Below, piece by piece: positions 1 through 12,599 of a stretch of DNA of 12,599 bases. Under the pieces are notes generated by a model. That model was not told where the DNA came from, did no database searches, and saw only the letters and a list, made by a program, of their open reading frames with translations. Both the position numbers and the translations under genes were made by a program. Numbering within the stretch: the stretch's first letter is position 1; every line of letters begins with the position of its first letter. Source of the stretch: an uncultured Angelakisella sp. (GTDB lineage Bacteria > Bacillota > Clostridia > Oscillospirales > Ruminococcaceae); the NCBI GenBank assembly GCA_904420255.1, contig CAJFUT010000011.1, forward strand, positions 1 through 12,599. The letters run 5' to 3'.

Positions 1-117
1 CTTGGGCTGATAAAAACCCGCCTTCTGAATCCCAAGTGATATGCTCAGGGAGCGGGGCACAAACCGGCGCAGCGTAGGCGCTTCTCTTACGGACGCAAAA
101 AGGCGCTTTGCGCCAGG
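1..117. other. Stretch with no supported gene
   Basis: I see no convincing gene here. A 26-codon plus-strand frame at 41-121 has no Shine-Dalgarno sequence. Some minus-strand frames stay open to the window edge but show no recognisable domain and no start signal. CTTGGG at 1-6 can pair with CCCAAG at 31-36, but the loop is long. The only signal I would support is the small minus-strand hairpin at 97-114, listed separately. A gene whose end lies outside the window cannot be excluded. Confidence 0.5.
97..114 (-). terminator. Possible rho-independent terminator, minus strand
   Basis: On the minus strand, GGCGC, loop AAA, GCGCC is followed at once by TTTTT. The stem is short but wholly GC, and the U-tract is on the correct side for minus-strand transcription. 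It would stop transcripts that read past icd and past the first hairpin at 205-234. The stem is only 5 bp, so confidence is moderate. Confidence 0.45.
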
Positions 118-146
118 TTGACAATTCCCCCGCCGGATGGTATCAT
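118..146 (+). promoter_or_regulatory. Near-consensus sigma-A promoter, plus strand
   Basis: A perfect -35 box TTGACA at 118-123, a 17-base spacer, and a -10 box TATCAT (5 of 6 matches) at 141-146. Initiation is expected around 153-155, where the sequence becomes GGGAGCAGCGC. No open reading frame with a ribosome binding site follows, so this promoter probably drives a short untranslated RNA that runs towards, and overlaps, the minus-strand peptide transcript. Confidence 0.7.
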
Positions 147-152
147 AAAAAC

Positions 153-240
153 AAGGGAGCAGCGCGACAAGCGGTTAGCCCCGTTTAGTGATCAGTTAAG
201 AAAAGAAACCGTCACCGTGCAGGGTGGCGGTTTCTGCGTT
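153..240 (+). ncRNA. Candidate antisense RNA overlapping the tiny peptide gene
   Basis: Predicted transcript from the promoter at 118-146. It has no plausible start codon with a ribosome binding site. It passes through the stem-loop at 205-234, where it is complementary to the 3' end of the minus-strand peptide mRNA. In this direction the hairpin is followed by TGCGTTTC, a weak U-tract, so the RNA may end there or extend further and cover the whole peptide frame. The tail-to-tail geometry is that of known type I antitoxin RNAs such as RatA opposite txpA. The 3' end shown is a guess. Transcript existence is inferred from promoter quality alone. Confidence 0.4.
198..234 (-). terminator. Terminator at the end of the tiny peptide frame
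   Basis: The minus strand reads GAAACCGCCACC, loop CTGCAC, GGTGACGGTTTC, then TTTTCTT. That is a 12-pair stem with one G-U wobble (205-216 with 223-234) and a U-rich tail at 198-204. This is a good intrinsic terminator for minus-strand transcription. The stem overlaps the last codons and the TGA stop of the 25-residue peptide, a compact arrangement typical of very short transcripts. Confidence 0.75.
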
Positions 241-289
241 TCACGATGATTGTCACCGTGAATGCGCCGATATGCAGAGTGATCCGCAT
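212..289 (-). CDS. 25-residue hydrophobic/cationic peptide, function unknown
   Basis: ATG at 289 (minus strand), stop TGA at 212-214. The peptide has a short hydrophobic core, residues 3-16 (ITLHIGAFTVTIIV), then a strongly basic tail, residues 17-25 (KRRNRHPAR). A Shine-Dalgarno AAGGGGG lies about 8 bases upstream. A near-consensus promoter at 356-384 and a terminator inside its 3' end support a real transcription unit of about 150 bases. In the mRNA, CACCC can pair with GGGTG across the ribosome binding site, which would limit translation. Small size, membrane-active composition, a masked ribosome binding site and a convergent overlapping RNA are all features of type I toxins, but I recognise no named family. 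A regulatory or membrane peptide is the main alternative. The core is short for a membrane-spanning helix. Confidence 0.5.
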   Translation of the reverse strand: MRITLHIGAFTVTIIVKRRNRHPAR

Positions 290-355
290 ACGCCCCACCC
301 CCTTTCGGGTGATGTGGGCTAACCGCCTGCCGTTTGATGCGCTGCTCCCGCGAAT

Positions 356-384
356 ATTGTATCAAAAGGCCGAAAACCTGTCAA
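356..384 (-). promoter_or_regulatory. Near-consensus sigma-A promoter, minus strand
   Basis: On the minus strand, TTGACA (379-384), a 17-base spacer, and TACAAT (356-361, 5 of 6 matches). The -35 box overlaps the TGA stop codon of icd (381-383). Initiation is expected near 349, exactly where GGGAGCAGCGC begins. It drives the 25-residue peptide gene. Transcription from icd should also read into it, because no terminator separates the two. Confidence 0.75.
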
Positions 385-1592
385 TGAAGCCCCGCCATCC
401 GCCCCCGCACCGCCCGGATATACTCCAGGCTGGTGGCGCATTTGGGGCTGGGGTGGGTGGTGATCTTGGCAAGGTCCGGGGTCATGATCCCGCTCTCGAT
501 GGTGAGGAGGGCGCTGTCCCGGAGGGCCCGGGCGAAGAAGACCAGCTCTGCCTGGCCGTCCAGCTCCCCCCGCTTCTCCAGGGCGCCGGCCCAGGCGCAG
601 ATGATGGCGATGGGGTTGGCCACCGCCGGCTCCCCCTTGCGGAAGCGGTAATAATGGCGGCGCACCGTGCCGTGGGCGGCCTCGTATTCAAAGCAGCCGT
701 CGGGGGACATGAGCACCGAGGTCATCATGGCGGCGGAGCCGTAGGCGCTGGCCACCATGTCGCTCATCACGTCCCCGTCGTAGTTCTGGCAGGCCCAGAC
801 ATAGCCCCCCTCGTCCCGCACCGCCCGGGAGACGGCGTCGTCGATGAGGCAGTACTGGTAGGTGATCCCCGCCTCCGCAAACCGCTGGGCGAATTCCTCC
901 TCATAGACCTGCTGGAACAGGTCCCGGAAGGCCCGGTCGTACACCTTGGAGATGGTGTCCTTGGCGGAAAAGAGAAGGTCCTGCTTCACCGAAAGGGCGT
1001 AGTTGAGGCAGCACCGGGCAAAGTTGAGGATGGATTTATCCAGGTTGTGGACCCCCTGGGCGATGCCGGGGCCCTTGAACTGGTGCACCAGCTCCCGGAT
1101 TTCCTCCCCGGTTTCCTCATTGGTGTAGACCAGCTCGCACTTCCCCGGCCCGGGGACCCGGATCTCCACCCCCCGGTAGAGGTCCCCATAGGCGTGGCGG
1201 GCCAGGGTGATGGGGCGTTTCCAGCTGCGGATATAGGGCTCGATGCCCGCCGCCAGGATGGGCGCCCGGAAGACGGTGCCGTCCAGGGCCGCCCGGATGG
1301 TGGCGTTGGGGCTTTTCCACATTTTGCTCAGGCCGTATTCCTGCACCCGGTCGATGTTGGGGGTGATGGTGGCGCACTTCACCGCTACCCCCAGCTCCCG
1401 GGTGGCCAGGGCCGAATCCATGGTCACCTGGTCGGCGGTGCGCTCCCGGTTGGGGAGCCCCAGGTCGTAGTACCGGGTGTCCAGCTCCACAAAGGGCTCC
1501 AGCAGCTCCTCCTTCACCATCCCCCAGAGGATGGCCGCCATCTCGTCCCCGCCCATCTCCACCAGGGGAGTTTTCATTTTGATTTTTTCCAT
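381..1592 (-). CDS. icd: NADP-dependent isocitrate dehydrogenase
   Basis: Cytosolic enzyme that oxidises and decarboxylates isocitrate to 2-oxoglutarate, supplying NADPH and the carbon skeleton of glutamate. At 403 residues it matches the eukaryotic-like (IDH1-type) homodimeric class rather than the E. coli class. Family motifs in order: KCATITPN at 72-79, the substrate loop MWKSPNATIR at 91-100, RHAYGDLYR at 132-140 (isocitrate-binding Arg132), the metal-binding aspartates in LIDDAVSRAV and NYDGDVMSD, and EYEAAHGTVRRHY, which contacts NADP. The start at 1592 is chosen because GGAGG lies 7 bases upstream. Met6 is an internal alternative without a better site. It has its own promoter (1658-1686) and leader hairpin, and is transcribed away from the polysaccharide operon. 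I see no functional link to it. Confidence 0.95.
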   Translation of the reverse strand: MEKIKMKTPLVEMGGDEMAAILWGMVKEELLEPFVELDTRYYDLGLPNRERTADQVTMDSALATRELGVAVKCATITPNIDRVQEYGLSKMWKSPNATIRAALDGTVFRAPILAAGIEPYIRSWKRPITLARHAYGDLYRGVEIRVPGPGKCELVYTNEETGEEIRELVHQFKGPGIAQGVHNLDKSILNFARCCLNYALSVKQDLLFSAKDTISKVYDRAFRDLFQQVYEEEFAQRFAEAGITYQYCLIDDAVSRAVRDEGGYVWACQNYDGDVMSDMVASAYGSAAMMTSVLMSPDGCFEYEAAHGTVRRHYYRFRKGEPAVANPIAIICAWAGALEKRGELDGQAELVFFARALRDSALLTIESGIMTPDLAKITTHPSPKCATSLEYIRAVRGRMAGLH

Positions 1593-1614
1593 TCCCAGCC
1601 CTCCGTTTCCGCTG

Positions 1615-1640
1615 AAGGCAGCCTGTGTCCGGGCTGCCTT
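1615..1640 (-). promoter_or_regulatory. Stem-loop in the icd mRNA leader
   Basis: A perfect 9-bp stem, AAGGCAGCC with GGCTGCCTT, and an 8-base loop at 1624-1631, between the predicted icd start of transcription (about 1651) and its ribosome binding site. It could stabilise the 5' end of the mRNA or act as a regulatory structure. Read on the plus strand the same hairpin is followed by TTCCTTTTT, so it would also stop transcription entering icd antisense. No riboswitch consensus is recognised. Confidence 0.55.
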
Positions 1641-1657
1641 TTCCTTTTTCTGGTACT

Positions 1658-1686
1658 ATTATGGCATTTTCCACCGGGGGTGTCAA
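1658..1686 (-). promoter_or_regulatory. Promoter of icd
   Basis: Minus strand: TTGACA (1681-1686), a 17-base spacer, and CATAAT (1658-1663, 5 of 6 matches). The expected start of transcription near 1651 gives a leader of about 59 bases before the icd ATG at 1592. Confidence 0.7.
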
Positions 1687-1789
1687 TCCGCCGGACGGGG
1701 GAGGGGTGCGGCGGCGCCTGCCAGGGGAACCGTTCCTTGGATTTGGTGGGCATGGCATCCGGGAATTTGTGGAAAAGCACGGTTTTACC

Positions 1790-1818
1790 TTTACGAAATC
1801 GGCTATTTATTGTATGAT
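1790..1818 (+). promoter_or_regulatory. Probable promoter of the surface-polymer operon
   Basis: Plus strand: TTTACG (1790-1795, 4 of 6 matches to TTGACA), a 17-base spacer, and TATGAT (1813-1818, 5 of 6). It lies in an AT-rich patch about 65 bases ahead of the first operon gene, in an intergenic stretch otherwise GC-rich. No clear operator is seen. Every downstream gap is 38 bases or less, so this may serve all ten genes. Confidence 0.5.
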
Positions 1819-1881
1819 ATAGACAAGAAACATCGCGGTGCGGCAGAAAATCACGAAAGATGGAAAAGGAGCGCCTTCTTC

Positions 1882-3312
1882 ATGATCAAAGCCAACCAAA
1901 AAATTTTCAACGGGGTCCTGGTGCTGCTGGACGCCGTGGTCTGCGCCGCCGCGATGGTCTGCGCCTACGCCCTGCGGTTCTGGAATTACGAGGGGGGCTT
2001 CCACCTGGGGCTGGACAGCTACTGGCGGCTGCTGGCGGCGGCGCTGCCGGCCTACGCCCTCATCTACCGGGCCTTCGGCCTTCACGATTCCTTCCGCTGC
2101 AAGGGCTTCCTGGTCGAAGCGGGAAAAATCATCCAGGCCAACCTGGCGGGGCTGGCCTTTCTGCTGGTGCTGGGCTTCCTCACCAGGGAGGTGGAGCTTT
2201 CCCGGATGGTGCTGGGGCTCTTTTTCCTGCTGGCCACGGCGGGGAGCTGCCTCATGCGGTACCTGCTCCGCAGGGCCCTGCGGCGGATGCGGGCCCGGGG
2301 CCGGAACCTGAAGCATTTTTTGATCGTGGGGTGGAATGATATGGCGGAGGAGTTCTGCCGCCGGGTCATTTCCAACAAATCCCTGGGCTGTTACATTGAC
2401 GCCTACCTGGGGGAGGGCCTCCCCGGGGAGGGGCTGTCCTTCCTCCCCCGGGCAGGGGGCCTCGGGGACCTGGAGGGGTACCTGGCCGGCCACACCCCCG
2501 ACCAGGTGGTGTTCTGCCTGGAATATGAGGAATACCCCCGGCTGGGGCGGATGCTGGAGGTGTGCGAGAAATACGGCGTCAAGTCCAGCCTGCTGCCGGC
2601 CTGTTCCCGCTACCTCCCCGCCAGGCCCCGCGCCCAGGTGGTCCAGGGGATGCCCCTCATCAACCTGCGCCACATCCCCCTGGACGACGCCCTCAACCGG
2701 GTGCTGAAGCGGGGGGTGGACATCGCCGTTTCCCTGGCGGGGCTGGTGCTCCTCTCCCCCCTGATGCTGGCGGTGGCGGCGCTGGTGAAGCTCACCTCCC
2801 CGGGGCCGGTTTTCTACCGCCAGGAGCGGGTGGGCCTCTGCCGCCGCACCTTCACCATGTATAAGTTCCGCTCCATGGCGGTGGACACCAGCGGCGGGGA
2901 TCAAACCGCCTGGAGCCGGGCCGCCGACAGCCGCCGCACCCCGGTGGGGGCGGTGCTGCGGAAGCTGAGCCTGGACGAGCTGCCCCAGCTCTGGAACGTC
3001 CTCCGGGGTGACATGAGCATTGTGGGCCCCCGGCCGGAGCTGCCCCATTTCGTGGAAAAGTTCCGGGAGGAGGTGCCCATGTATATGCTCAAGCACCTGG
3101 TGCGCCCCGGCATCACCGGCTGGGCCCAGGTGAAGGGCTGGCGGGGGGACACCTCCATTGTGGAGCGGATCCGGTGCGACCTGTGGTACATAGAAAACTG
3201 GACCCTCCTGCTGGACCTGAAGATCATGGCCATGACCGCCTTCGCCATGGTGAACCGCCGGGAAACCCTAGCGGGGGCCGGCAAGGGGCGGGAGGGGAGC
3301 CGGGCGCGGTAA
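1882..3312 (+). CDS. Undecaprenyl-phosphate sugar phosphotransferase (priming enzyme)
   Basis: A 476-residue membrane enzyme of the WcaJ/CpsE polyprenyl glycosylphosphotransferase family. It transfers a sugar phosphate from a nucleotide sugar to undecaprenyl phosphate and so starts polymer assembly on the inner face of the membrane. Four hydrophobic segments (about 8-31, 49-66, 84-100, 107-125) precede a cytoplasmic middle domain. A fifth hydrophobic segment (about 279-302) opens the catalytic domain. There I see KRGVDI at 276-281, FYRQERVG, MYKFRSM, the active-site pair Asp365-Glu366 in LDELPQLWNVLRGD, GPRPE at 382-386 and RPGITGWAQVKG. Start ATG 1882 has GGAG 10 bases upstream. Longer frames run back into icd antisense and are not credible. 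Which sugar is used cannot be read. It is the first gene of the operon. Confidence 0.93.
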   Translation: MIKANQKIFNGVLVLLDAVVCAAAMVCAYALRFWNYEGGFHLGLDSYWRLLAAALPAYALIYRAFGLHDSFRCKGFLVEAGKIIQANLAGLAFLLVLGFLTREVELSRMVLGLFFLLATAGSCLMRYLLRRALRRMRARGRNLKHFLIVGWNDMAEEFCRRVISNKSLGCYIDAYLGEGLPGEGLSFLPRAGGLGDLEGYLAGHTPDQVVFCLEYEEYPRLGRMLEVCEKYGVKSSLLPACSRYLPARPRAQVVQGMPLINLRHIPLDDALNRVLKRGVDIAVSLAGLVLLSPLMLAVAALVKLTSPGPVFYRQERVGLCRRTFTMYKFRSMAVDTSGGDQTAWSRAADSRRTPVGAVLRKLSLDELPQLWNVLRGDMSIVGPRPELPHFVEKFREEVPMYMLKHLVRPGITGWAQVKGWRGDTSIVERIRCDLWYIENWTLLLDLKIMAMTAFAMVNRRETLAGAGKGREGSRAR

Positions 3313-3326
3313 AAGGGGGATGGAGG

Positions 3327-4166
3327 ATGGAGCGGATCGCCTATGTGATCCTGACCTGGAACTCCCGGCGGCACATCGCCGCCTGCCTGCGGGCCATTTA
3401 CGGGATCACCTCCCTGGGGGCCCAGATCATTGTGGTGGACAACGGCTCCGCCGACGGAACGGCGGAGCTTCTGGAGGAGCTGGCCCGGGAATGCCCGGGC
3501 CATTGCTCTCTGGAAGTGGTGAAAAACCCCCGGAACCTGGGCACCACCCGCCCCCGGAACCAGGGCCTGGCCCGGGTGGGCCGGGACGCCGCCTATATCT
3601 GTATCCTGGACGCCGACACCCAGGTGAACCAGGCCGCCATGGAGGAGCTGGCGGGGCAGCTGCGGCGGCACCCGGAATACGGCGTCGTGGGCCCCCGGAT
3701 GGCCGACGGGTCGGGGCGGGAGCAGCTCTCCGGCCGGAATTTCCCCACCCCCTGGGAAAAGCTCTGCAAGGCGGCTCCCGTCCCGGCTCTCCAGGCCCTG
3801 GGGGAGCGGCTGGAGCGGCCCCCGGGCTGGGGTTCCCCCCGGCCCTGCCCGGTGGGGTACCTCATGTCCGCCTGCTGGCTGATGCCCCGGGAGCTGCCGG
3901 GGTTGGTGGGGGGCCTGGATGAAAGGATCTTCTACGCCCCGGAGGACGCCGACTACTGCGCCCGGGTCTGGCAGGCGGGGCGGCAGGTGGTTTTCTGCCC
4001 CGGCGCCCGGATCCTCCACCACTGGCAGCGGCTTTCCCGCCAAAAGCTTCTGAGCCGCCACAACTGGGAGCACCTCATGGGGCTCCTGTATTTTTTCCGC
4101 AAGCACCGCGCCTTCCTCCGGCGGTGGAATCCCCCCGGAAATCCCGGGGAAAACGGGGCATACTAA
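3327..4166 (+). CDS. Family 2 glycosyltransferase
   Basis: A 279-residue cytoplasmic or membrane-associated GT2 enzyme expected to add a sugar from a nucleotide sugar to the lipid-linked acceptor. The GT-A fold is shown by IAYVILTWNS at the N-terminus, VVDNGSADGT around Asp38, the metal-binding DAD at 95-97 (LDADT), and the later acidic motif APEDADYCARVWQAG (Glu206-Asp209), as in rhamnosyltransferase-like (WbbL-type) members. No membrane segment is evident. The ATG at 3327 is preferred over the out-of-frame ATG at 3320. AAGGGGG ends 7 bases before it. It begins 14 bases after the priming enzyme ends. Donor and linkage are unknown. Confidence 0.9.
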   Translation: MERIAYVILTWNSRRHIAACLRAIYGITSLGAQIIVVDNGSADGTAELLEELARECPGHCSLEVVKNPRNLGTTRPRNQGLARVGRDAAYICILDADTQVNQAAMEELAGQLRRHPEYGVVGPRMADGSGREQLSGRNFPTPWEKLCKAAPVPALQALGERLERPPGWGSPRPCPVGYLMSACWLMPRELPGLVGGLDERIFYAPEDADYCARVWQAGRQVVFCPGARILHHWQRLSRQKLLSRHNWEHLMGLLYFFRKHRAFLRRWNPPGNPGENGAY

Positions 4167-4193
4167 GAACCGGGAAGGCAGGGACGGATTGCG

Positions 4194-4973
4194 GTGAGAT
4201 TTTTCCGGGATTTGAAGAAATACCGCCGGTACATCACCTACTCGGCGGGGGCGGTGCTGAAATCGGAGGTGGCGGGCTCCTACCTGAGCTGGGCCTGGTG
4301 GGTGCTGGACCCCCTGCTCTTCATGCTGGTCTACACCTTTGTGGCCCAGGTGGTGTTCCGCACCCAGATGGAGCATTTCCCCATCTTTGTCTTCATCGGC
4401 CTGATGGTGTGGAGCTTTTTTGAAAAGGACCTGGTCCAGTCGGTTTCCCTCCTGCGGGCCAACCGGGGCATCATCACCCGGATCTACCTGCCCAAGCAGG
4501 TGCTGCTCCTCCAGCGGATGGCGGTGAACGGCTTCAAGCTCCTCATCTCCCTGGGGCTGATCCTGGGGATGCTGGCGGTGTCCCGGGTGCCCTTCACCTG
4601 GGGGATGCTCTGGGCGCTGCCCCACCTGGCGCTGCTGCTGCTCCTCACCTTCGCCGCCGGGAGCTGGTGCCTCCACCTGGGGGTGTTTATCGAGGACCTG
4701 CAGAATGTCATTTCGGTGCTGCTGAAGCTGCTTTTTTATTTTTCCGGGGTCTTTTACGACATCGCCACCATGGTGCCCGCCCCCTGGAACCGCCTCCTGA
4801 TGGCGGCAAACCCGGTGGCCCTGGTGATGGCGGGCTGCCGGGGGGCCCTGCTCCGGGGCGCCGGGCCGGACTGGGGCCCCCTCCTCCTCTGGACGGGGGC
4901 GGCCCTGCTGGCGGCCTGGCTGGGGACCTGGATGATCTACCGCTATGAAAACAGCTACGGGAAGGTGATTTGA
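4194..4973 (+). CDS. ABC-2 type polysaccharide/teichoic acid export permease
   Basis: A 259-residue integral membrane protein, the channel half of an ABC exporter of the Wzm/TagG family. It moves an undecaprenyl-linked glycan or polyol-phosphate polymer across the cytoplasmic membrane. About six hydrophobic segments are visible (near 31-53, 63-79, 109-129, 137-163, 172-190, 228-249), in the family's usual arrangement. The N-terminal amphipathic stretch (LKKYRRYI) is typical, as is NPVALVMAGCRGALL before the last segment. It uses a GTG start, with only a weak AGGGA 9 bases upstream, which may keep expression modest. Its stop lies 2 bases before the start of the ATPase gene, so the two subunits are surely co-expressed. 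Confidence 0.92.
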   Translation: MRFFRDLKKYRRYITYSAGAVLKSEVAGSYLSWAWWVLDPLLFMLVYTFVAQVVFRTQMEHFPIFVFIGLMVWSFFEKDLVQSVSLLRANRGIITRIYLPKQVLLLQRMAVNGFKLLISLGLILGMLAVSRVPFTWGMLWALPHLALLLLLTFAAGSWCLHLGVFIEDLQNVISVLLKLLFYFSGVFYDIATMVPAPWNRLLMAANPVALVMAGCRGALLRGAGPDWGPLLLWTGAALLAAWLGTWMIYRYENSYGKVI

Positions 4974-4975
4974 GG

Positions 4976-5698
4976 ATGGCCCTCTCCATCGAGGTGAAGG
5001 ACGTGCATCTCAGCTACCGCACCATCAACCCCGTTTCGGCAAAGAGCCTGGGCCGGGGGGCGGGGAAGCGGAGCTCCCGCTTCGAGGCCCTCCGGGGGGT
5101 CTCCTTCCAGGTGGAGGAGGGGGAGATCCTGGGGGTGGTGGGGCGCAACGGCAGCGGCAAATCCACCCTGCTGCGGACCATCGCCGGCATCTTCTCCCCC
5201 GACAGCGGCTCCATCGAGACCTTCGGCCGCTCGGTTTCCCTGCTGGCCATCGGGGTGGGGTTCCAGCCCCGGCTCACCGGGAGGGACAACATCATCCTCT
5301 CGGGGCTGCTGCTGGGCTTCGGGGAGGAGGAGATCCGGGCCCGGATGGAGGAGATCATCGATTTTTCCGAGCTGGGGCCCTTCATCGACCGGCCGGTGAA
5401 GACCTACTCCAGCGGGATGTACTCCAAGCTGGCCTTCGCCATCACCGTCACCCTGGAAACCGACATCATCCTCATCGACGAGGTGCTCAGCGTGGGGGAC
5501 GCCCGGTTCAACAAAAAGAGCTTCGCCCGGATGAAGGAGCTCATCGGCGGCGCGGACCGCACCGTCCTCATGGTGTCCCACGCCGCCGGCACCATCCGGC
5601 AGCTCTGCAGCCGGGTGCTGTGGCTGGACCAGGGGCGGGTGCGGATGGTGGGGGAGACCGAGGAGGTCCTCCGGGCCTATGGGGAAGCCGGGGGCTGA
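4976..5698 (+). CDS. ABC exporter ATP-binding subunit, Wzt/TagH type
   Basis: A 240-residue ATPase that powers the preceding permease. Walker A GRNGSGKST is at 56-64, the signature region YSSGM at 144-148 (the form usual in polysaccharide and teichoic acid exporters), Walker B ending Asp168-Glu169 in ILIDEV, SVGD as the D-loop, and the switch histidine His202 in VSHAAG. The long N-terminal insertion before the nucleotide-binding core is also typical of this group. There is no C-terminal carbohydrate-binding domain as in E. coli O9a Wzt, so recognition of a modified chain end by this protein is unlikely. The ATG at 4976 is preferred. An in-frame TTG at 4970 overlaps the permease stop. Confidence 0.94.
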   Translation: MALSIEVKDVHLSYRTINPVSAKSLGRGAGKRSSRFEALRGVSFQVEEGEILGVVGRNGSGKSTLLRTIAGIFSPDSGSIETFGRSVSLLAIGVGFQPRLTGRDNIILSGLLLGFGEEEIRARMEEIIDFSELGPFIDRPVKTYSSGMYSKLAFAITVTLETDIILIDEVLSVGDARFNKKSFARMKELIGGADRTVLMVSHAAGTIRQLCSRVLWLDQGRVRMVGETEEVLRAYGEAGG

Positions 5699-5721
5699 GG
5701 CCCGGGAAGGAGGGGAAAGGG

Positions 5722-6918
5722 ATGCATCACAGCCTGTGGGAAAAGCTCCGGCGGGTCCGCCCCCGGGACCTCTGGCACCTCTGCCTCTTTCTGCTGGCCC
5801 TGCCCGCCGCCGCCCTCTGCCGGCGGCGCAGGCCCCGGCTCTGGCTCCTCTGCGAATACGGCGGCGAGGCGAGGGACAACGCCTTCGCCCTCTTCGCCTA
5901 CCTGCGCCGGGAGCGGCCGGGGCAGGACGCGGTTTACGCCATCCACCGGGATTCCCCGGATTACCCCCGGGCGGCCGCCCTGGGGGAAACGGTGGAATAC
6001 GGCTCCTTCCGCCACTGGGTGCTGTACCTGGCGGCGGAACGGAACATCAGCACCCAGAAGGGGGGCAAGCCCAACGCGGCGGTCTGCTACCTTTTGGAGG
6101 TGAAGCTGGGGCTGCTGCGGGGCTGCCGGGTCTTCCTCCAGCACGGCGTCACCAAGGACGACCTCCCCTATCTCCATTACCGGGACACCCGGATGGCCCT
6201 TTTCGTCTGCGCCGCCAACCCGGAATACGATTTTGTGAAGGAGCGGTTCGGCTATCCCCCCGGGGCGGTGCGGAAGCTGGGCTTCTGCCGGTACGACAGC
6301 CTCTGGGACCCGCCGCCCCCCAAAAACCAGGTGGCGGTGGTGCCCACCTGGCGGGATTACCTCTGCCGGGGGGACGGGGGCCTGGAGGAGTTCCGCCGGA
6401 GCCTCTACTGCCGGGCCTGGGGGGAGTTCCTCCGGGACCCCCGGCTGGAGGCGCTGCTGGAGCGGGAGGGGCTGGAGCTGGTCTTCTGCCCCCACCGGAA
6501 GATGGCGGGGTACCTGGCGGCCTTCGACCGGCTCCCGCCCCGGGTGGCCCGGGCCGGGTGGGAGGGGCAGGACATCCGGGAGCTGCTGCTGGGCTCCCGG
6601 CTGCTCATCACCGACTATTCCAGCGTGGCCATGGACTTCGCCTACCTGGGCAGGCCGGTGCTGTATTACCAGTTCGACGAGGAGGAGTACCGCCGGGGGC
6701 ACCTGCCCCAGGGGTATTTCGACTACCGCCGGGACGGCTTCGGGCCGGTCTGCGCCGGGGCCGGGGAGCTGCTGGAGGCCCTGGAGCGGGCCGCGGCGGG
6801 GGGCTTCGGGGTGGAGCCGGTTTACCGGGAGCGCCGGGAGGGCTTTTTCGCCTTCCGGGACGACCAGAACTGCCGGAGGAACTATGAGGCCATCCGGGAG
6901 CTGAAGGGAAGGAGGTGA
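5722..6918 (+). CDS. CDP-glycerol glycerophosphotransferase family protein
   Basis: A 398-residue member of the TagB/TagF family (Pfam Glyphos_transf). Members transfer glycerol phosphate or ribitol phosphate from the CDP-activated form to a lipid-linked acceptor at the inner membrane face. Visible marks are FLQHGVTKDD with the conserved QHG at 140-142, VVPTWRDYL in the middle, and TDYSSVAMDFAYLGRPV starting at Thr297, the strongest family signature. Residues 17-33 are hydrophobic and flanked by arginines, giving an N-terminal membrane anchor or surface helix. Start ATG 5722 is fixed by AAGGAGG 8 bases upstream. The length suits a single-domain transferase, shorter than the TagF polymerase. 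Its presence suggests that the polymer carries polyol phosphate. Whether it adds one unit or polymerises is not decidable here. Confidence 0.9.
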   Translation: MHHSLWEKLRRVRPRDLWHLCLFLLALPAAALCRRRRPRLWLLCEYGGEARDNAFALFAYLRRERPGQDAVYAIHRDSPDYPRAAALGETVEYGSFRHWVLYLAAERNISTQKGGKPNAAVCYLLEVKLGLLRGCRVFLQHGVTKDDLPYLHYRDTRMALFVCAANPEYDFVKERFGYPPGAVRKLGFCRYDSLWDPPPPKNQVAVVPTWRDYLCRGDGGLEEFRRSLYCRAWGEFLRDPRLEALLEREGLELVFCPHRKMAGYLAAFDRLPPRVARAGWEGQDIRELLLGSRLLITDYSSVAMDFAYLGRPVLYYQFDEEEYRRGHLPQGYFDYRRDGFGPVCAGAGELLEALERAAAGGFGVEPVYRERREGFFAFRDDQNCRRNYEAIRELKGRR

Positions 6919-6923
6919 GGGGG

Positions 6924-7973
6924 ATGGAGCCCCTCATCAGCGTCATTGTGCCGGTCTACAACACCCGGCCCTATCTGAAGCGGTGCGTGGAGAGCCTCCT
7001 GGCCCAGACCTGGCCGCGGCTGGAGATCATCCTGGTGGACGACGGCTCCCCCGACGGGGCGGGGGCGGTCTGCGACGCCTACGGGGCCCGGTTCCCCCAG
7101 GTGCGGGTGATCCACCAGGAGAACGGGGGCCTTGCCCGGGCCCGGAACACCGGCCTCAGGGCCGCCCGGGGGGACTATATCGGCTGGGTGGACAGCGACG
7201 ACTGGGCCGCCCCGGACCTCTTCGCCTACCTGGCCGGGGGCCTCCGGAGGACGGGGTGCGACCTGGCCCTCTGCGGCTGGTGGCTGGTGCGGGGGGAGGA
7301 GGCCGCGGCGGCCCCCCTCCGGGAGGCGGTGCTCCCCTCCCGGGAGGCCCAGGGGCTCCTCTACCGGGGCCGCATCCAGAACTGGGTCTGGAACAAGCTG
7401 GCCCCCCGGGAGCTGTACCGGGGCATCTCCTTCCCCGAGGGGCGGGACTTTGAGGACATCCATGTGATGTACCGGCTGTTCCGCCGGGCCCGGCGGATTC
7501 TGGTGCTGCCCGAGCCCAAGTACTACTACCGCCAGCGGGAGGACAGCATCTCCCGCCGGCCCGACATCGGCAAAAAGCTGGAGCTGTGCCAGGCCATGGA
7601 GGAGCGGTACCGCCGGGTGGTCCGGGAGGACCCGGGCTTCGGCCCCGACCTGATGGGGGGCTATCTGGTGGCCTGCTCCGCCCTGGGCCAGGCGGTGGCC
7701 GCCGCCTCCCCGGAGGAGCGGCGCAAATGGGAGAATCAAATCGGCGCCGCCCTCCGGTTCCTGGCCCGGCGCCGCTCTGAGGCCCTGGAGGGCTACCCCG
7801 GCCGGGCGGGGCGGCTGAAGCTGGCGCTGCTGCTCCTGGGCCGGCCCTGGAGCTTCCGCCTGGGGGCGGCCGCGGCGGCCCGGTACGAAAAAAGGCGGGG
7901 GAGGGGCTACCGCCCCTTCCGGTGGGAGGACCGGGATTCCCTGGCGGGAGGGGAGGGGAAGGGCCCTGGATAG
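6924..7973 (+). CDS. Family 2 glycosyltransferase, second in the operon
   Basis: A 349-residue GT2 enzyme distinct from the one at 3327. The N-terminus LISVIVPVYNTRPYLKRCV and LVDDGSPDG (Asp39-Asp40) mark the nucleotide-sugar site. WVDSDDW carries the DSD metal motif at 90-92. GRDFEDIHV (Glu177-Asp178) supplies the later acidic motif typical of capsule and exopolysaccharide transferases of the EpsJ/CpsI kind. The C-terminal 100 residues are basic and helical, consistent with membrane association, without a clear transmembrane segment. The ATG at 6924 has AAGGAGG 8 bases upstream. A GTG at 6915 overlaps the previous stop and is less likely. The gene starts 5 bases after its neighbour. The sugar is unknown. 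Confidence 0.92.
   Translation: MEPLISVIVPVYNTRPYLKRCVESLLAQTWPRLEIILVDDGSPDGAGAVCDAYGARFPQVRVIHQENGGLARARNTGLRAARGDYIGWVDSDDWAAPDLFAYLAGGLRRTGCDLALCGWWLVRGEEAAAAPLREAVLPSREAQGLLYRGRIQNWVWNKLAPRELYRGISFPEGRDFEDIHVMYRLFRRARRILVLPEPKYYYRQREDSISRRPDIGKKLELCQAMEERYRRVVREDPGFGPDLMGGYLVACSALGQAVAAASPEERRKWENQIGAALRFLARRRSEALEGYPGRAGRLKLALLLLGRPWSFRLGAAAAARYEKRRGRGYRPFRWEDRDSLAGGEGKGPG
7952..7956 (+). promoter_or_regulatory. Ribosome binding site pointing to a CTG start
   Basis: GGAGG at 7952-7956, within a longer purine-rich run, ends 9 bases before an in-frame CTG at 7966. The first ATG of the LicD frame, at 8029, has no ribosome binding site, and no ATG, GTG or TTG occurs in that frame between the two. 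The G-rich run also encodes the C-terminus of the upstream glycosyltransferase, so its match could be partly accidental. Confidence 0.45.
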
Positions 7974-9084
7974 CCGGCTGAAAACCTGGTACGAGCGGCT
8001 GAGCCCCGTCTACCGCACCCTGCGGCGGATGGAGGCCCGGCAGCAGCGGATGGAGGCGGCCCTCCTGGGCCGCCAGGAGCAGCTTTTCTGGTGGCTGGCG
8101 GCCCTGCCGGGGGAGGACCCGGACCAGACCCGGCGGCGGGTGTTCCGCCGGATGCCCCCGGCCCGGGGCGGCCTCCGGGCGGTGCAGCTGGGGAACCTGG
8201 CCATCCTCCGGGAGCTGCGGGAGCTCTGCGCCCGAAACGGCCTGGAATTCTGCCTGGCGGCGGGGACGCTGCTGGGGGCGGTGCGCCATGGAGGCTTTGT
8301 CCCCTGGGACGACGACGTGGACCTCTATATGCCCCACGCCCATCTCCGCCGCCTGGGGGAGCTGCTTCGGGACCACCCCCGGCTGGAGCTGAACCCATAT
8401 TTTACCACCCGGCGGACTGCGTACTCCTTCGATGCCTGGCAAACCTATAAAGTGACGTTCCGGGGATTGGAGCGGCCCTTCTGGGCGGACGTCTTCGCCT
8501 TGGATTTCGTCCAGTGCCCCCCGGAGGAAAAGGACCGGCGGTGGGGGGAAATCCGGGCGGGGCTGGAAGCGGCCGCCCGGCAGCTGGCCAAAACCGCCCG
8601 GCGGCTCCCGTACCCCTATTACGAGGAGCCCATCCGGGACCCGGCCCACCGCCGCCGGGTGGAGGAAACCCTGGAAAAGGCCATGGCCCCCCTCCCCCGG
8701 GAGGAACGGGGGGACTGGGTCTACCTGGGGCGGGACGGCCACTTTGTCTGGTGGCCGGAGCTCTACCCCGCCGGGAAAATCTTCCCCCTGGGGGAGCTGG
8801 AATTTGAGGGGGAGCCTTTCCCCGTCCCCCGGGACCCGGAAGGGATGCTCCGGAAGGCCTACGGGGACTTCTGGGCCCTGCCGGGGGATTTCGCCGCCGG
8901 CCACCCGGGGATGGTCCCCCCGGAATTCACCGAGGAACGGCTCCGGGAGCTGCTGGAGCGGGTCCTGGAGAGCCCATTTGAAAAACAAGGAGGAACGGAA
9001 AATGACCACCGAGAAGAAACTGGCCCTGCTGGAGGAGATGATGGAGCTGCCCGCCGGCTCCCTGACGCCGGAAACCGCCCTTGA
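7966..9084 (+). CDS. LicD family transferase
   Basis: A LicD-type protein with a nucleotidyltransferase-like fold. Family members attach phosphocholine, sugar phosphate or similar phosphodiester groups to surface glycans. The core motif is intact: AAGTLLGAVRHGG, then VPWDDDVDLYM, with Asp115-Asp117 and Asp119 as the likely metal ligands (numbered from CTG 7966). FWADVFALDF follows. The N-terminal 60 residues are charged, helical and coiled-coil-like. Start: I favour CTG 7966, which has a good ribosome binding site, giving 372 residues. The conservative alternative is ATG 8029, giving 351. The 3' end is odd, because the frame runs 83 bases into the carrier-protein gene and adds an unlikely tail after SPFEKQGG. 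A one-base shift would end it at 8981. The substrate is unknown. The neighbouring carrier-protein genes suggest that it acts on a modified unit. Confidence 0.85.
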   Translation: MDSRLKTWYERLSPVYRTLRRMEARQQRMEAALLGRQEQLFWWLAALPGEDPDQTRRRVFRRMPPARGGLRAVQLGNLAILRELRELCARNGLEFCLAAGTLLGAVRHGGFVPWDDDVDLYMPHAHLRRLGELLRDHPRLELNPYFTTRRTAYSFDAWQTYKVTFRGLERPFWADVFALDFVQCPPEEKDRRWGEIRAGLEAAARQLAKTARRLPYPYYEEPIRDPAHRRRVEETLEKAMAPLPREERGDWVYLGRDGHFVWWPELYPAGKIFPLGELEFEGEPFPVPRDPEGMLRKAYGDFWALPGDFAAGHPGMVPPEFTEERLRELLERVLESPFEKQGGTENDHREETGPAGGDDGAARRLPDAGNRP

Positions 9085-9223
9085 GGGGCTGGAGGAATGG
9101 GACAGCGTGGCGCTGCTCTCCTTCATCGCCCTGATGGAGGACGAATTCGGCAAGGCCGTCCGGGGCGGCCGGGTGAAGGAGATGAAAAGGGTGGCGGACC
9201 TTCTGGCGGTGATGGAGAAATGA
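9002..9223 (+). CDS. Acyl carrier protein
   Basis: A 73-residue, mostly acidic helical protein with the four-helix carrier-protein pattern. Ser35 in LEEWDSVALLSFIALMEDEF sits at the start of helix II and is the expected 4'-phosphopantetheine site. The motif is DSV rather than the DSL usual in fatty-acid carriers, which suggests a dedicated carrier rather than the housekeeping AcpP. Start ATG 9002 has a strong AAGGAGG 8 bases upstream. It overlaps the LicD frame by 83 bases and shares ATGA with the next gene. With the adenylating ligase and dehydrogenase downstream, it probably carries a small acyl or aminoacyl group destined for the surface polymer. Confidence 0.85.
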   Translation: MTTEKKLALLEEMMELPAGSLTPETALEGLEEWDSVALLSFIALMEDEFGKAVRGGRVKEMKRVADLLAVMEK

Positions 9224-9963
9224 CCTGCCCCATGAGCCTTGCGGGAAAGCACATCCTCATCACCGGGGCCTCCTCCGGCATCGGCCGCCAGTGCGCCGTC
9301 CAGGCCAGCCGCCTGGGAGCCCGGGTGAGCCTGGCTGCCCGGGACCGGCGGCGGCTGGAGGAAACCCGGGCCGCCATGGAGGACCCCGGCGCCCACCGCT
9401 GCTTCCCCTTCGACCTGGAGCGCACCGGGGAGATCAGGGGGCTGGTGGAGGCGGCGGTGGAGGAAGGGGGCCCGCTGGACGGCCTCTGCCACGGGGCCGG
9501 GATGGCGGCGGGACGCCCCCTGCGGGACTGCCGGCCGGAGTTTGTCCAGCGGGTCTTCCGGGTCCACGCCTTTGCCTTCCTGGAGCTGGTGCGGTGCCTT
9601 TCCCTGGGAGGACGGCTCCGGGACGGGGCCTCCCTGGTGGGGGTTTCCTCGGTGGCGGCCCAGCGGGGCGGGGTTTCCCAGGCGGCCTACGCCGCGGCCA
9701 AGGCGGCGGTCAACGGCCTGGTGGCCCCGGCGGCCCTGGAGCTGGCCCCACGGCGGATCCGGGTCAACGCCGTGGCCTACGCCATGGTGGACACCCCCAT
9801 GTTCCGGGAATTTATGGAAGCCAGCGGGGACCCCCGGCTGCTGGAGCGCCAGGCCCTGGGGGTCATCGACGCCGCCAGCGCCGCCAACGCGGTGATGTTC
9901 CTGCTGGGGGACGCCTGCCCCTTTATCACCGGGGCGGTGCTGCCGGTCTACGCCGGATATTGA
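9220..9963 (+). CDS. Short-chain dehydrogenase/reductase (FabG-like)
   Basis: A 247-residue classical SDR that would reduce or oxidise a keto/hydroxy group using NAD(P). The Rossmann motif TGASSGIG is at 15-22. The catalytic Ser144 lies in VGVSSVAAQ, 13 residues before Tyr157 of YAAAK (Lys161), the normal spacing. The usual NAG structural motif reads HGAG at 91-94. Basic residues after the second strand (AARDRRR) favour NADPH. Start: ATG 9220 overlaps the carrier-protein stop (ATGA), so translation is probably coupled. Met5 at 9232 is the alternative and has no better site. Next to a carrier protein, the likely substrate is a carrier-bound beta-ketoacyl or a sugar-like intermediate. Confidence 0.9.
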   Translation: MTCPMSLAGKHILITGASSGIGRQCAVQASRLGARVSLAARDRRRLEETRAAMEDPGAHRCFPFDLERTGEIRGLVEAAVEEGGPLDGLCHGAGMAAGRPLRDCRPEFVQRVFRVHAFAFLELVRCLSLGGRLRDGASLVGVSSVAAQRGGVSQAAYAAAKAAVNGLVAPAALELAPRRIRVNAVAYAMVDTPMFREFMEASGDPRLLERQALGVIDAASAANAVMFLLGDACPFITGAVLPVYAGY

Positions 9964-9969
9964 AAGGGC

Positions 9970-9988
9970 GGGCGGCGCCGGGCCGCCG
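9970..9988 (+). other. GC-rich stem-loop between two operon genes
   Basis: CGGCGGC pairs with GCCGCCG around a 5-base loop, in the 38-base gap before the ligase gene, directly upstream of its AAGGAG. No U-tract follows, so it is not an intrinsic terminator. It may influence mRNA stability or ribosome access, or simply reflect high GC. Confidence 0.35.
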
Positions 9989-10001
9989 GAAAGGAGAAGC
10001 C

Positions 10002-11531
10002 ATGGGAAAGATCAACCTTTTGGAATACTTTGAGGACACCGTCCGCCGGCTGGGGGAAAAGACGGCGGTGCTGGACGGGGAGCGGGCGGTTTCCTTCCGG
10101 GAGCTGCGGCGGGAGGCCCGGGCCCTGGGCTGCGCCCTCCGCCGGAAAACCGGCGGGGAGCCGGGCCGCCCGGCGGCGGTTTACCTGAAAAAAAGCGCCG
10201 GCAGCATCGCGGCGGACCTGGCCGTCCTCTACGCCGGCTGCGCCTACCTGAACCTGGACGTGGACACCCCCCTGCCCCGGACCCGGAGCGCCCTGGAGCT
10301 GGTGGAGCCCCTGGCGGTGATCACCGACCGGGACCACGCCCCCGCCCTCCGGGAGCTCTGGCCCCAGGAGCGGACCCTCCTGCTGGAGGAGGCCCGGCCC
10401 CCCGCCCCGGCGGAGGAGGCGGCTATGGACGCCGGGCTCCGGGGGCTCATCGACACCGACCTTTTCTGCCTCATCAACACCTCCGGCTCCACCGGCACCC
10501 CCAAGAGCGTGGCCCTCTGCCACCGCAGCTTCATCGACTACACCACCTGGGCCATCGAGGCCCTGGGCCTCCGGGAGGAGGAGGTCCTGGGGAGCCTGGC
10601 CCCCATCGTCTTTGACCATTTCAGCTATGAGCTCTGCCTCATGATGGCCCTGGGCTGCACCCTGGACCTCATCCCCGAGGGCTGCGCCGCCTTCCCGCCG
10701 AAGCTGCTCCAGCACCTGGCCAAGCGGGAGGTCACCTATATCTTCTGGGTCCCCACCATCATGGTGAACATCGCCAACCTGGACCTCCTCTCCCGCATCC
10801 CCCTGCCCCGGCTGCGGATGGTGTGGTTCGCCGGGGAGGTCTTCCCCACCAAGCAGTTCAACTACTGGCGGCGGCACCTGCCGGGGGCCACCTTCGTCAA
10901 CCTCTACGGCCCCACCGAGATCACGGTGGACTGCACCTATTTCGTGGTGGACCGGGAGATCCCCGACCAGGAGCCCATCCCCATCGGCTTCCCCCGCCGC
11001 AACGCCGACGTGCTGATCCTCCGGGAGGGGGACCTCCCCGCCGGGCCGGGGGAGGAGGGGGAGCTCTGCGTCCGGGGCTCCTGCCTGGCCCTGGGGTACT
11101 ACAACAACCCGGAAAAGACGGCGGAGGCCTTTGTCCAGAACCCCCTGAACCGGGCCTACCCCGAGCGGATCTACCGCACCGGGGACATGGTTTTCCGGAA
11201 TGAGCGGGGGGAGATCGTCTTCAGGGGCAGGCGGGACAGCCTCATCAAGCACGCCGGCAAGCGCATCGAGCTGGGGGAGATCGAGCATACGGCGGTGAAC
11301 GCCCTCGGGCTGGTGGAAAACGGCTGCGCCGTCTACGACGGGGACCGCCGGGAGATCGTCTTTTTCTACGAGGCCCGGGAGGAGCTGCCCCCGGCCCGGT
11401 TCCGCCGGGCGCTGCTGGAGGTGCTGCCGGGGTACATGGTGCCGGGCCGGTTTGTCCGGATGGAGCAGCTCCCCCGGAACCAGAACGGCAAGATCGACCG
11501 GCTGGCCCTGAAAAAGCGGGTCAATGGCTGA
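10002..11531 (+). CDS. DltA-like amino acid/acyl adenylating ligase
   Basis: A 509-residue ANL-superfamily enzyme, the same size as D-alanine:carrier protein ligase DltA. It would activate a carboxylate with ATP and load it on the carrier protein encoded two genes upstream. Motifs: the P-loop NTSGSTGTPK at 159-168, NLYGPTE at 300-306, YRTGD with Asp395, RRDSLIKHAGKRIELGEIE, and the catalytic Lys497 in NQNGKIDR. Asp205 in VFDHFSYEL falls where amino-acid-activating members (DltA, NRPS A domains) hold the substrate amino group, so an amino acid is the leading guess. The P-loop continues KSV where KGV is usual. Start ATG 10002 has GGAAAGGAG just upstream. It is not called dltA, because no DltB or DltD gene is seen and the neighbours differ. 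Confidence 0.88.
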   Translation: MGKINLLEYFEDTVRRLGEKTAVLDGERAVSFRELRREARALGCALRRKTGGEPGRPAAVYLKKSAGSIAADLAVLYAGCAYLNLDVDTPLPRTRSALELVEPLAVITDRDHAPALRELWPQERTLLLEEARPPAPAEEAAMDAGLRGLIDTDLFCLINTSGSTGTPKSVALCHRSFIDYTTWAIEALGLREEEVLGSLAPIVFDHFSYELCLMMALGCTLDLIPEGCAAFPPKLLQHLAKREVTYIFWVPTIMVNIANLDLLSRIPLPRLRMVWFAGEVFPTKQFNYWRRHLPGATFVNLYGPTEITVDCTYFVVDREIPDQEPIPIGFPRRNADVLILREGDLPAGPGEEGELCVRGSCLALGYYNNPEKTAEAFVQNPLNRAYPERIYRTGDMVFRNERGEIVFRGRRDSLIKHAGKRIELGEIEHTAVNALGLVENGCAVYDGDRREIVFFYEAREELPPARFRRALLEVLPGYMVPGRFVRMEQLPRNQNGKIDRLALKKRVNG

Positions 11532-11549
11532 CCCGGAAAGGAGCAGGGA

Positions 11550-12599
11550 ATGAACCTGGAAACCGCATACGAAAAAATGGCCCGGATCCGGGCCTTTGAG
11601 GAAACCCTTCTTTCCCTTTTCTCGGAAAACAAGCTCTTCGGCACCACCCACACCTACCTGGGTCAGGAGGCGGTGGCGGTGGCCGCCATGGCCCAGGTGC
11701 GGGAGGGGGACCGGGTTTTCAGCAACCACCGCTGCCACGGCCACTTCCTGGCCTATTCCGGGGCGGCCGCCACGCTGCTGGCCGAGATCATGGGCAGGGA
11801 AGGGGGGATGTGCCGGGGCCGGGGCGGCAGCCAGCACATCTGCTGGAAAACCTTCTATACCAACGGCGTCCAGGGGGGCATCGTCCCCGACGCTACCGGC
11901 ATGGCCCTGGCGGAAAAATACAAGGGCACCGGGGCCGTCGCCGTGGCCTTCCTGGGGGACGGCACCCTGGGCCAGGGGGTGGTCTACGAGAGCTTCAACC
12001 TGGCCGCCCTCTATGAAATCCCCGTCCTCTATGTGGTGGAGGACAACGGCTACGCCATGACCACCCGGACCCGGGACGGGGTGGCGGGGTCCATCCCCGG
12101 CAGGGCCCGGGCCTTCGGCATCCAGACGGCGGAGATCGCCTCCAACGACGTGGAGGAGCTGGACGCCGCCTTCCGGGAGGCCTTCGCCTATGTCCGGGAG
12201 GAGGGGAAGCCCTTCTGCCAGGTGGTCCATACCTACCGCCTGGGCCCCCACAGCAAGGGGGACGACTTCCGGGAGGAGGCGGAGCTGGCCCGGCACCGGG
12301 AAAACGACCCCCTCCTGCTGGCGGAGAGGAAGCTCCCCGCCGGGAAGGCGGAGGAGATCCGGGCCCGGGTCCGGCGGGAGCTGGAGCAGGCGGTGGAGGA
12401 CTGCTCCCGGATGGAAACGGAGCGGGCCGCACCGCCGGGGGATCCCCCCGAGCCGCCCTCCCCGGGCGGGAGCCTCTTAAACACCCGACGGCGGGAAAAA
12501 TGCGCCGCCGCCATCAGCCGGGGGCTGGGGGGCATCCTGGAGCGGGACCCCCTGGCGGTGATCCTGGGGGAGGACATCCGGGACCCCTACGGCGGCGCC
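11550..12599 (+). CDS. Fused E1-alpha/E1-beta thiamine-diphosphate dehydrogenase (partial)
   Basis: Open from ATG 11550 to the window edge (350 codons, no stop). GGAAAGGAG ends 6 bases before the start. The E1-alpha domain of 2-oxo acid dehydrogenases fills about residues 1-270: THTYLGQEAVAVAA, FSNHRCHGHFLAY, GRGGSQHI, and the thiamine-diphosphate motif from GDGTLGQG (136-143) to VVEDNGYAM. A proline-rich linker (PPGDPPEPPSPGG) follows. Then NTRRREKCAAAISRGL and VILGEDIRDPYGGA match the start of an E1-beta domain, so this is an alpha-beta fusion cut by the window. Such enzymes decarboxylate a 2-oxo acid and normally pass the acyl group to lipoyl-E2. No E2 or E3 is visible here. In this operon it may instead supply or ligate an acyl unit for the polymer. 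Confidence 0.88.
   Translation, partial: MNLETAYEKMARIRAFEETLLSLFSENKLFGTTHTYLGQEAVAVAAMAQVREGDRVFSNHRCHGHFLAYSGAAATLLAEIMGREGGMCRGRGGSQHICWKTFYTNGVQGGIVPDATGMALAEKYKGTGAVAVAFLGDGTLGQGVVYESFNLAALYEIPVLYVVEDNGYAMTTRTRDGVAGSIPGRARAFGIQTAEIASNDVEELDAAFREAFAYVREEGKPFCQVVHTYRLGPHSKGDDFREEAELARHRENDPLLLAERKLPAGKAEEIRARVRRELEQAVEDCSRMETERAAPPGDPPEPPSPGGSLLNTRRREKCAAAISRGLGGILERDPLAVILGEDIRDPYGGA

Follow-up and report, generated by a model that had tools for sequence, protein, structure and literature searches.

A probable type I toxin-antitoxin-like module with a predicted closed toxin mRNA and a conserved 25-residue peptide beside icd in an uncultured Angelakisella sp.

Based on sequence analysis of the window, a stretch of 12,599 nucleotides from an uncultured Angelakisella sp. 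(contig CAJFUT010000011.1, positions 1 to 12,599), the region 118-384 is probably a type I toxin-antitoxin-like module consisting of a closed toxin mRNA and an antisense RNA. The minus-strand RNA (349 to approximately 147) would encode the putative toxin, a peptide of 25 residues. At the 5' end of this RNA, the first 34 bases (27 paired, 7 bulged) would pair with the 27 bases preceding the final U-run and, with the Shine-Dalgarno sequence (SD) placed within a hairpin, these closed ends would leave a fresh full-length mRNA largely shut. The plus-strand RNA (155 to approximately 238) would be antisense to the 3' part of the mRNA, covering the distal arm, the central hairpin and the end of the open reading frame (ORF). 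Since the distal arm and the mRNA 5' arm are complementary, the antitoxin would start with a near copy of the 5' arm; being antisense to the distal arm, it matches the mRNA at the 5' end. Bound antitoxin would displace the mRNA 5' arm from the distal arm and, judging from the bsrG/SR4 system, the resulting duplex would be cut by RNase III. Comparison of copies argues for the promoters, the selection on the ORF, the closing helix on the peptide strand and a chassis common with hydrophobic peptides; the transcript ends, toxicity, the order of steps and the participation of RNase III are what we infer. The first-pass annotation had proposed a compact RNA/peptide module of the txpA/RatA sort with 3'-overlapping convergent RNAs, and this proposal held, with copies keeping the promoters, the hairpin and the inverted blocks. 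Features of the module are listed in the table.

Table. Coordinates of predicted features of the module within the window.
Feature	Position	Strand	Basis and remarks
Antitoxin-side promoter	118..146	+	TTGACA 118-123, TATCAT 141-146; promoter scan
Predicted full-length toxin mRNA	147..349	-	Start ~349, end in U-run 154-147; arm covariation and U-run
Distal (3') arm of toxin mRNA	155..181	-	Followed by U-run 154-147 on the minus strand
Predicted antisense antitoxin RNA	155..238	+	Start ~155, end after central hairpin; sequence-based
Central hairpin, probable terminator of antitoxin RNA	204..235	+	Overlaps ORF end
ORF of putative toxin peptide, 25 codons, MRITLHIGAFTVTIIVKRRNRHPAR	212..289	-	Sequence, homologues, pN/pS
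Leader hairpin hiding SD (302-295)	291..319	-	Predicted fold
5' arm of toxin mRNA	316..349	-	349-339 and 331-316 pair with distal arm; 7-nt bulge 338-332
Toxin-side promoter	356..384	-	TTGACA 384-379, TACAAT 361-356; promoter scan and sequence

The module directly follows icd, identified by Pfam Iso_dh, and the toxin-side -35 box shares bases with the icd stop codon. Two facing near-consensus promoters had been described previously; each matches the consensus at 11 of 12 positions, with 17-bp spacing and TG before the -10 box. Within 1.2 kb, three promoter-like sites were found compared to 0.4 +/- 0.6 in shuffles, the third being a 9/12 match on the minus strand at 170-142. The shared opening blocks of both RNAs were likewise recovered at the predicted starts (~155 on the plus and ~349 on the minus strand): block GGGAGCAGCGC occurs exactly at 155-165 and 349-339, and block GCGGTTAGCCC at 171-181 and 326-316. 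The inverted arms 155-174/330-349 and 165-181/316-332 are 85% and 88% complementary, respectively. Furthermore, the 25-codon frame with a ribosome binding site on one arm was confirmed, the strong SD GGGGGTGG lying upstream of it. Both strands fold much more stably than shuffles (z -8.2 for 155-349, plus strand; z -10.0 for 349-146, minus strand). The central hairpin, initially described as a strong terminator, is present and wholly paired on the plus strand, with one C-A mismatch on the minus strand; a role as strong terminator was not confirmed by the intrinsic-terminator scan, which did not list this hairpin and found a single site, on the minus strand at 114-102. The host assembly (81% complete) contains a single copy of the module. 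Further along the window, positions 1477-11531 (plus strand) carry surface polysaccharide genes encoding a sugar transferase, an ABC-2 exporter with its ATPase, a glycosyltransferase 2, LicD and an AMP-binding enzyme.

Concerning the matching 5' ends, an earlier reading as a shared processing or regulator site was revised in favor of a 5'-3' helix of the toxin mRNA, on the grounds of covariation, wobble direction and the U-run. For 45 of the 49 loci taken together, pairing of the two arms of one locus scores higher than that of arms exchanged between loci (24.2 vs. 17.4 +/- 0.5, reached by none of 5000 permutations), the other four, truncated or lacking a distal arm, having been excluded by eye, which favors the result; since the modules are related by descent, p values are nominal. 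In an alignment of 52 modules (53 references were listed, L136 was left out), the helix of the mRNA ends is paired in 92.7% of cells, compared to 86.9% in shuffles. Changes on both sides occur in 15 of 23 pairs, doubly changed cells number 86 vs. 23 in shuffles, and sliding the partner arm by 1-3 columns lowers pairing to 32-60%.

The direction of wobble was determined for a set of 77 modules (80 distinct entries minus two extra starts in L119 and L044, in which the leader motif lies 143 nt off), reduced to 74 after removal of redundancy. The module detector required the leader motif and the antitoxin promoter, and hence conservation of these two elements among the 77 modules partly reflects how the modules were selected. 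Differences between the arms appear as G-U pairs 118 times on the peptide strand and 34 times on the other (95 vs. 34 without a family-fixed site accounting for 23 cells), and 110 differences are transversions. By module, 43 lean toward the peptide strand and 7 in the opposite direction, with 24 ties, and the bias is present in both peptide classes (48 vs. 21 and 47 vs. 13). A cause at the DNA level alone (gene conversion or a protein site) was rejected, because arm differences lean to G-U on the peptide strand. Strand composition was also discarded as a cause of this lean, since control regions on the same strand show no G+T skew (0.48-0.53). Moreover, the 12 nt following the distal arm contain 7.2 T on the peptide strand compared to 3.8 at the mirror position (n = 72 of the 77 modules); the A-rich start of the antitoxin gene, source of this U-run, could serve the antitoxin promoter instead. 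Based on sequence comparison, the conserved structure is best read as 5'-3' closure of the toxin mRNA, and covariation and wobble direction point to a long-distance helix of the hok/aapA kind in the full-length mRNA. The matching arms may have originated by inverted duplication.

For the central hairpin, 41 of 48 modules of the window peptide type show the mid-stem C-A mismatch on the peptide strand where the opposite strand forms a U-G pair, the remaining 7 showing no simple register. Synonymous alternatives exist at the codon concerned, and the mismatch may represent one inherited state. To judge from this mismatch on the peptide strand, the antitoxin seems to be the RNA served by the hairpin and the mRNA the one served by the closing helix, which implies that at least some mRNA molecules must extend beyond the central hairpin. 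T content at the hairpin base is about equal on the two strands (5.2 and 5.4 of 12), so that mRNA termination at the hairpin, upstream of the distal arm, could also occur.

The full-length toxin mRNA is predicted to be closed (-109 kcal/mol), with the SD within a hairpin. Predicted SD opening is low in every folded state, and the shortened form of the mRNA, when folded, also hides the SD. Covariation of the leader hairpin showed no excess over shuffles. Blocking of the antitoxin-covered part decreased mean predicted SD opening from 0.105 to 0.069, with a fall in 47 and a rise in 5 of 52 modules. Additional elements were observed in certain copies. An extra GC-rich hairpin (GCCCCGCAAGGGGC-like), perhaps a 5' stabilizer, lies between the toxin -10 box and the 5' arm in L050, L059-L062, L066 and L072. 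In L067, a second copy of the central-hairpin sequence just beyond the antitoxin promoter is perhaps the remnant of a tandem module. In the subtype comprising L076, L082, L084 and L197, the antitoxin strand of the distal arm includes an additional AACCTCCTTTC-like stretch (anti-Shine-Dalgarno).

The peptide ORF is under strong purifying selection. As in a small type I ORF selected as protein, pN/pS is 0.067 for codons beyond the search pattern and 0.060 for those within it (30 distinct 25-codon ORFs). In a wider set, pN/pS amounts to 0.20 (47 distinct ORFs, 1079 pairs) vs. 0.34 for hydrophobic peptides of the same chassis (102 pairs), both at amino acid identities of at least 0.5. The residues T, H, T, T and I are invariant among 14 peptides. 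The final eight codons double as central-hairpin sequence and are under RNA-level constraint as well: at residues 23 and 25, S..K is found in 15, P..R in 14 and S..Q in 1 of 30 ORFs, as expected if their codons pair in the hairpin. Mean hydropathy of the window peptide is 1.29, below that of most hydrophobic same-chassis peptides computed, and the strand-like hydrophobic moment of its core is 0.57 compared to a helical moment of 0.29; corresponding values for the core of the HIF subtype are 0.70 and 0.05. V, I and T account for 56-59% of the peptide core, and three hydrophobic chassis peptides lack the strand-like pattern of the window peptide core.

Database searches returned no Pfam, NCBIfam, PADLOC or PHROG family for the window peptide, no match to Pfam Hol_Tox (PF16935) up to E 1 and no match in PDB sequence searches. 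Its relative in L085 weakly matches a PHROG family of unknown function (E 0.018), and phage records yielded a single weak match (E 2). No description of this family was found in the literature searched, which is to be read as literature outside subscription journals and preprints. The window peptide represents a new peptide class within a known general kind of module.

The strongest argument for a toxin role of the peptide is the chassis. In one metagenome-assembled genome (L041:2258-3486), four tandem modules are spaced 293-318 bp apart, of which modules 1 and 2 encode hydrophobic peptides and modules 3 and 4 peptides of the window type. The neighboring modules 2 and 3 share 95.0% identity over promoter and leader up to the start codon vs. 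48.4% over the ORF, and encode unrelated peptides. Neither hydrophobic peptide of this array matches Pfam Hol_Tox; the module 2 peptide has a weak match to PHROG holin (E 0.003), that of module 1 an insignificant one (E 0.17). Another chassis member, L017, belongs to Hol_Tox (PF16935) with a score above the cut-off.

Copies at other loci, for which the first-pass annotation had suggested a search, were found with promoters, hairpin and inverted blocks kept. The scan of genome contigs provided 49 peptide-encoding loci from 57 stretches, including two near duplicates and some loci that share a genome, and the scan of viral contigs 8 loci. Records of the 49 loci are named Oscillospiraceae, Lachnospiraceae and others, and carriers include Dysosmobacter, Oscillibacter, Pseudoflavonifractor, Flavonifractor, Yanshouia and Clostridium porci. 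As for an antisense RNA gene, the antitoxin-side promoter matches at least 11 of 12 positions in 44 of 47 loci; for the toxin side this applies to 20 of 47, compared to approximately 0.1% in shuffles, and 14 of 47 loci remain below 9/12 within the 115 nt searched. Tandem modules occur at 7 loci. Vescimonas fastidiosa has the peptide at four places on its 861-kb plasmid (tblastn, NZ_AP023416.1); the gene table, known to have gaps, lists no gene at the one place displayed. On this plasmid, two tandem modules are located near nadE (L126:3633 and 3963).

A DNA search against 297 family genomes detected 21 with E <= 0.01, host included, and strong matches carry the whole architecture. Among weak matches, L020, L021, L024, L025, L033, L035 and L036 are modules with hydrophobic peptides; L019 and L022 were read as partial and L026-L029 as not being modules, L023 and L034 having been left out of this reading. 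With the peptide profile, hits at E <= 0.1 were obtained in 34 of 396 family genomes, the host among them; the lowest-scoring hits are probably chance matches, and one genome yielded nine matches and a second one six. Across the phylum, 5 of 398 genomes matched at E <= 1e-5, again including the host. Of the loci new in this search, L198 was parsed by script, L199 and L197 (minus strand) were read by eye as leader, ORF and distal arm, and L200, also read by eye, is without a clear leader. The leader motif alone was found in 32 of 396 family genomes. At G107:C11:46075-46391 (L140), six leader-motif matches with an exact 60-base period are perhaps an unrelated repeat.

Neighbors of the copies vary and comprise recR, ribulose-phosphate epimerase, TauE, a phage integrase, a resolvase and an MmeI-type enzyme; 8 of 20 scanned neighbor proteins had no Pfam match (19 loci were chosen for this survey, 4 of them absent from the module list). 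On a viral contig (L119:2890-4876), a phage capsid gene and a gene for an SU10-type adaptor flank a module. At L146:1675-2025, a T-box leader (E 1.5e-17, just under the gathering score) is located beside a module on the opposite strand. For the icd flank, 2 of 10 genomes compared were matched, one being the host itself; the sole usable same-genus genome (icd alignable, 66%) shows no module in the flank read.

Regarding known systems, the par/Fst locus of pAD1 has convergent RNAs that meet at a shared terminator, and direct repeats in both RNAs. The module resembles it in its predicted convergent RNAs and the repeats in both; in contrast, the repeats common to the module's two RNAs are inverted. 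Like bsrG/SR4 and txpA/RatA of Bacillus subtilis, the module would have a toxin mRNA and an antisense RNA that pair at their 3' ends; a main helix, P1, and partial masking of the SD are features of the bsrG mRNA with counterparts predicted here. The Rfam BsrG model (RF01412) hit L032 (E 4e-5, 36 bits, below the cut-off of 55) and L017/L156 (below its cut-off), and had no match up to E 5 within window positions 60-460. In the window, Rfam provided nothing at gathering score and two matches at chance level by E value. The window peptide is unrelated to BsrG and conserved by residue, whereas BsrG is reported to vary. According to PMC6562991, SR4 lengthens the bsrG SD helix from 4 to 8 bp; the modeled fall in SD opening upon blocking of the antitoxin region has the same direction, which is a weak hint. 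As described in PMC6733600, full-length aapA3 mRNA is inert via a 5'-3' long-distance interaction and becomes active after 3' trimming, and hok mRNA is inert in a similar way. The module resembles aapA/IsoA and hok/Sok in its predicted 5'-3' closed toxin mRNA; these systems belong to other phyla and have other sequences, and in the module the antitoxin would be antisense to the 3' arm. Hol_Tox, finally, includes a chassis member but not the window peptide.

The peptide might alternatively be a conserved, non-toxic regulatory or signaling microprotein, its dose being limited by the antisense RNA, so that no toxin-antitoxin pair would exist. Conservation at the level of residues, including the five invariant positions, and a pN/pS below that of the hydrophobic same-chassis peptides are in line with such a role. 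However, the same chassis and even the same tandem array hold hydrophobic, toxin-like peptides, and the distribution is scattered, multi-copy and partly in viral contigs, which makes this explanation unlikely. It was also considered that the equal 5' ends act between molecules, the near-palindromic GGUUAGCC allowing a kissing contact between the RNAs, a role ascribed to the direct repeats of par/Fst. If G-U pairs are counted, this 8-mer is self-complementary in 59 of the 77 modules but not in the other 18, and the direction of wobble fits pairing inside the peptide-strand RNA; kissing as the function of the equal ends therefore appears improbable, and as a first contact it could coexist with the closing helix.

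A MITE-like mobile repeat, with the inverted ends as terminal repeats and incidental promoters, would account for these ends, for copies at different loci and for the nine profile matches in one genome. Yet the ends are internal to the promoters, with arm differences that follow peptide-strand wobble; in addition, the ORF is under coding selection, copies occur in tandem and no common boundary was seen in the one empty flank compared, and a mobile element with terminal repeats was therefore set aside as highly implausible. The earlier idea of mobility deduced from the inverted ends likewise found no support, as the ends are inside the promoters, no transposase lies within the module and no common boundary was detected (one empty flank compared).

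For the type I toxin-antitoxin-like module as the preferred reading, an extended proposal, tentative and rather less likely to be correct than not, is a swappable type I RNA chassis: a closed-mRNA/antisense cassette distributed through gut Clostridia, whose peptide part is exchanged for unrelated ones, among them a new class of amphipathic beta-strand or hairpin toxins that would have a specific target rather than act as a membrane helix. In PMC8309996, type I toxins are pictured as all-helical, and this picture would not extend to a type I chassis peptide that is strand-like and conserved by residue. If toxic, the window peptide would be an unusual type I toxin. Furthermore, the wobble-direction test shows how a hairpin can be assigned to one of two opposing RNAs from sequence alone. 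The family provides natural variants in which RNA control is kept while the peptide changes, so that control and toxicity would be separable for testing.
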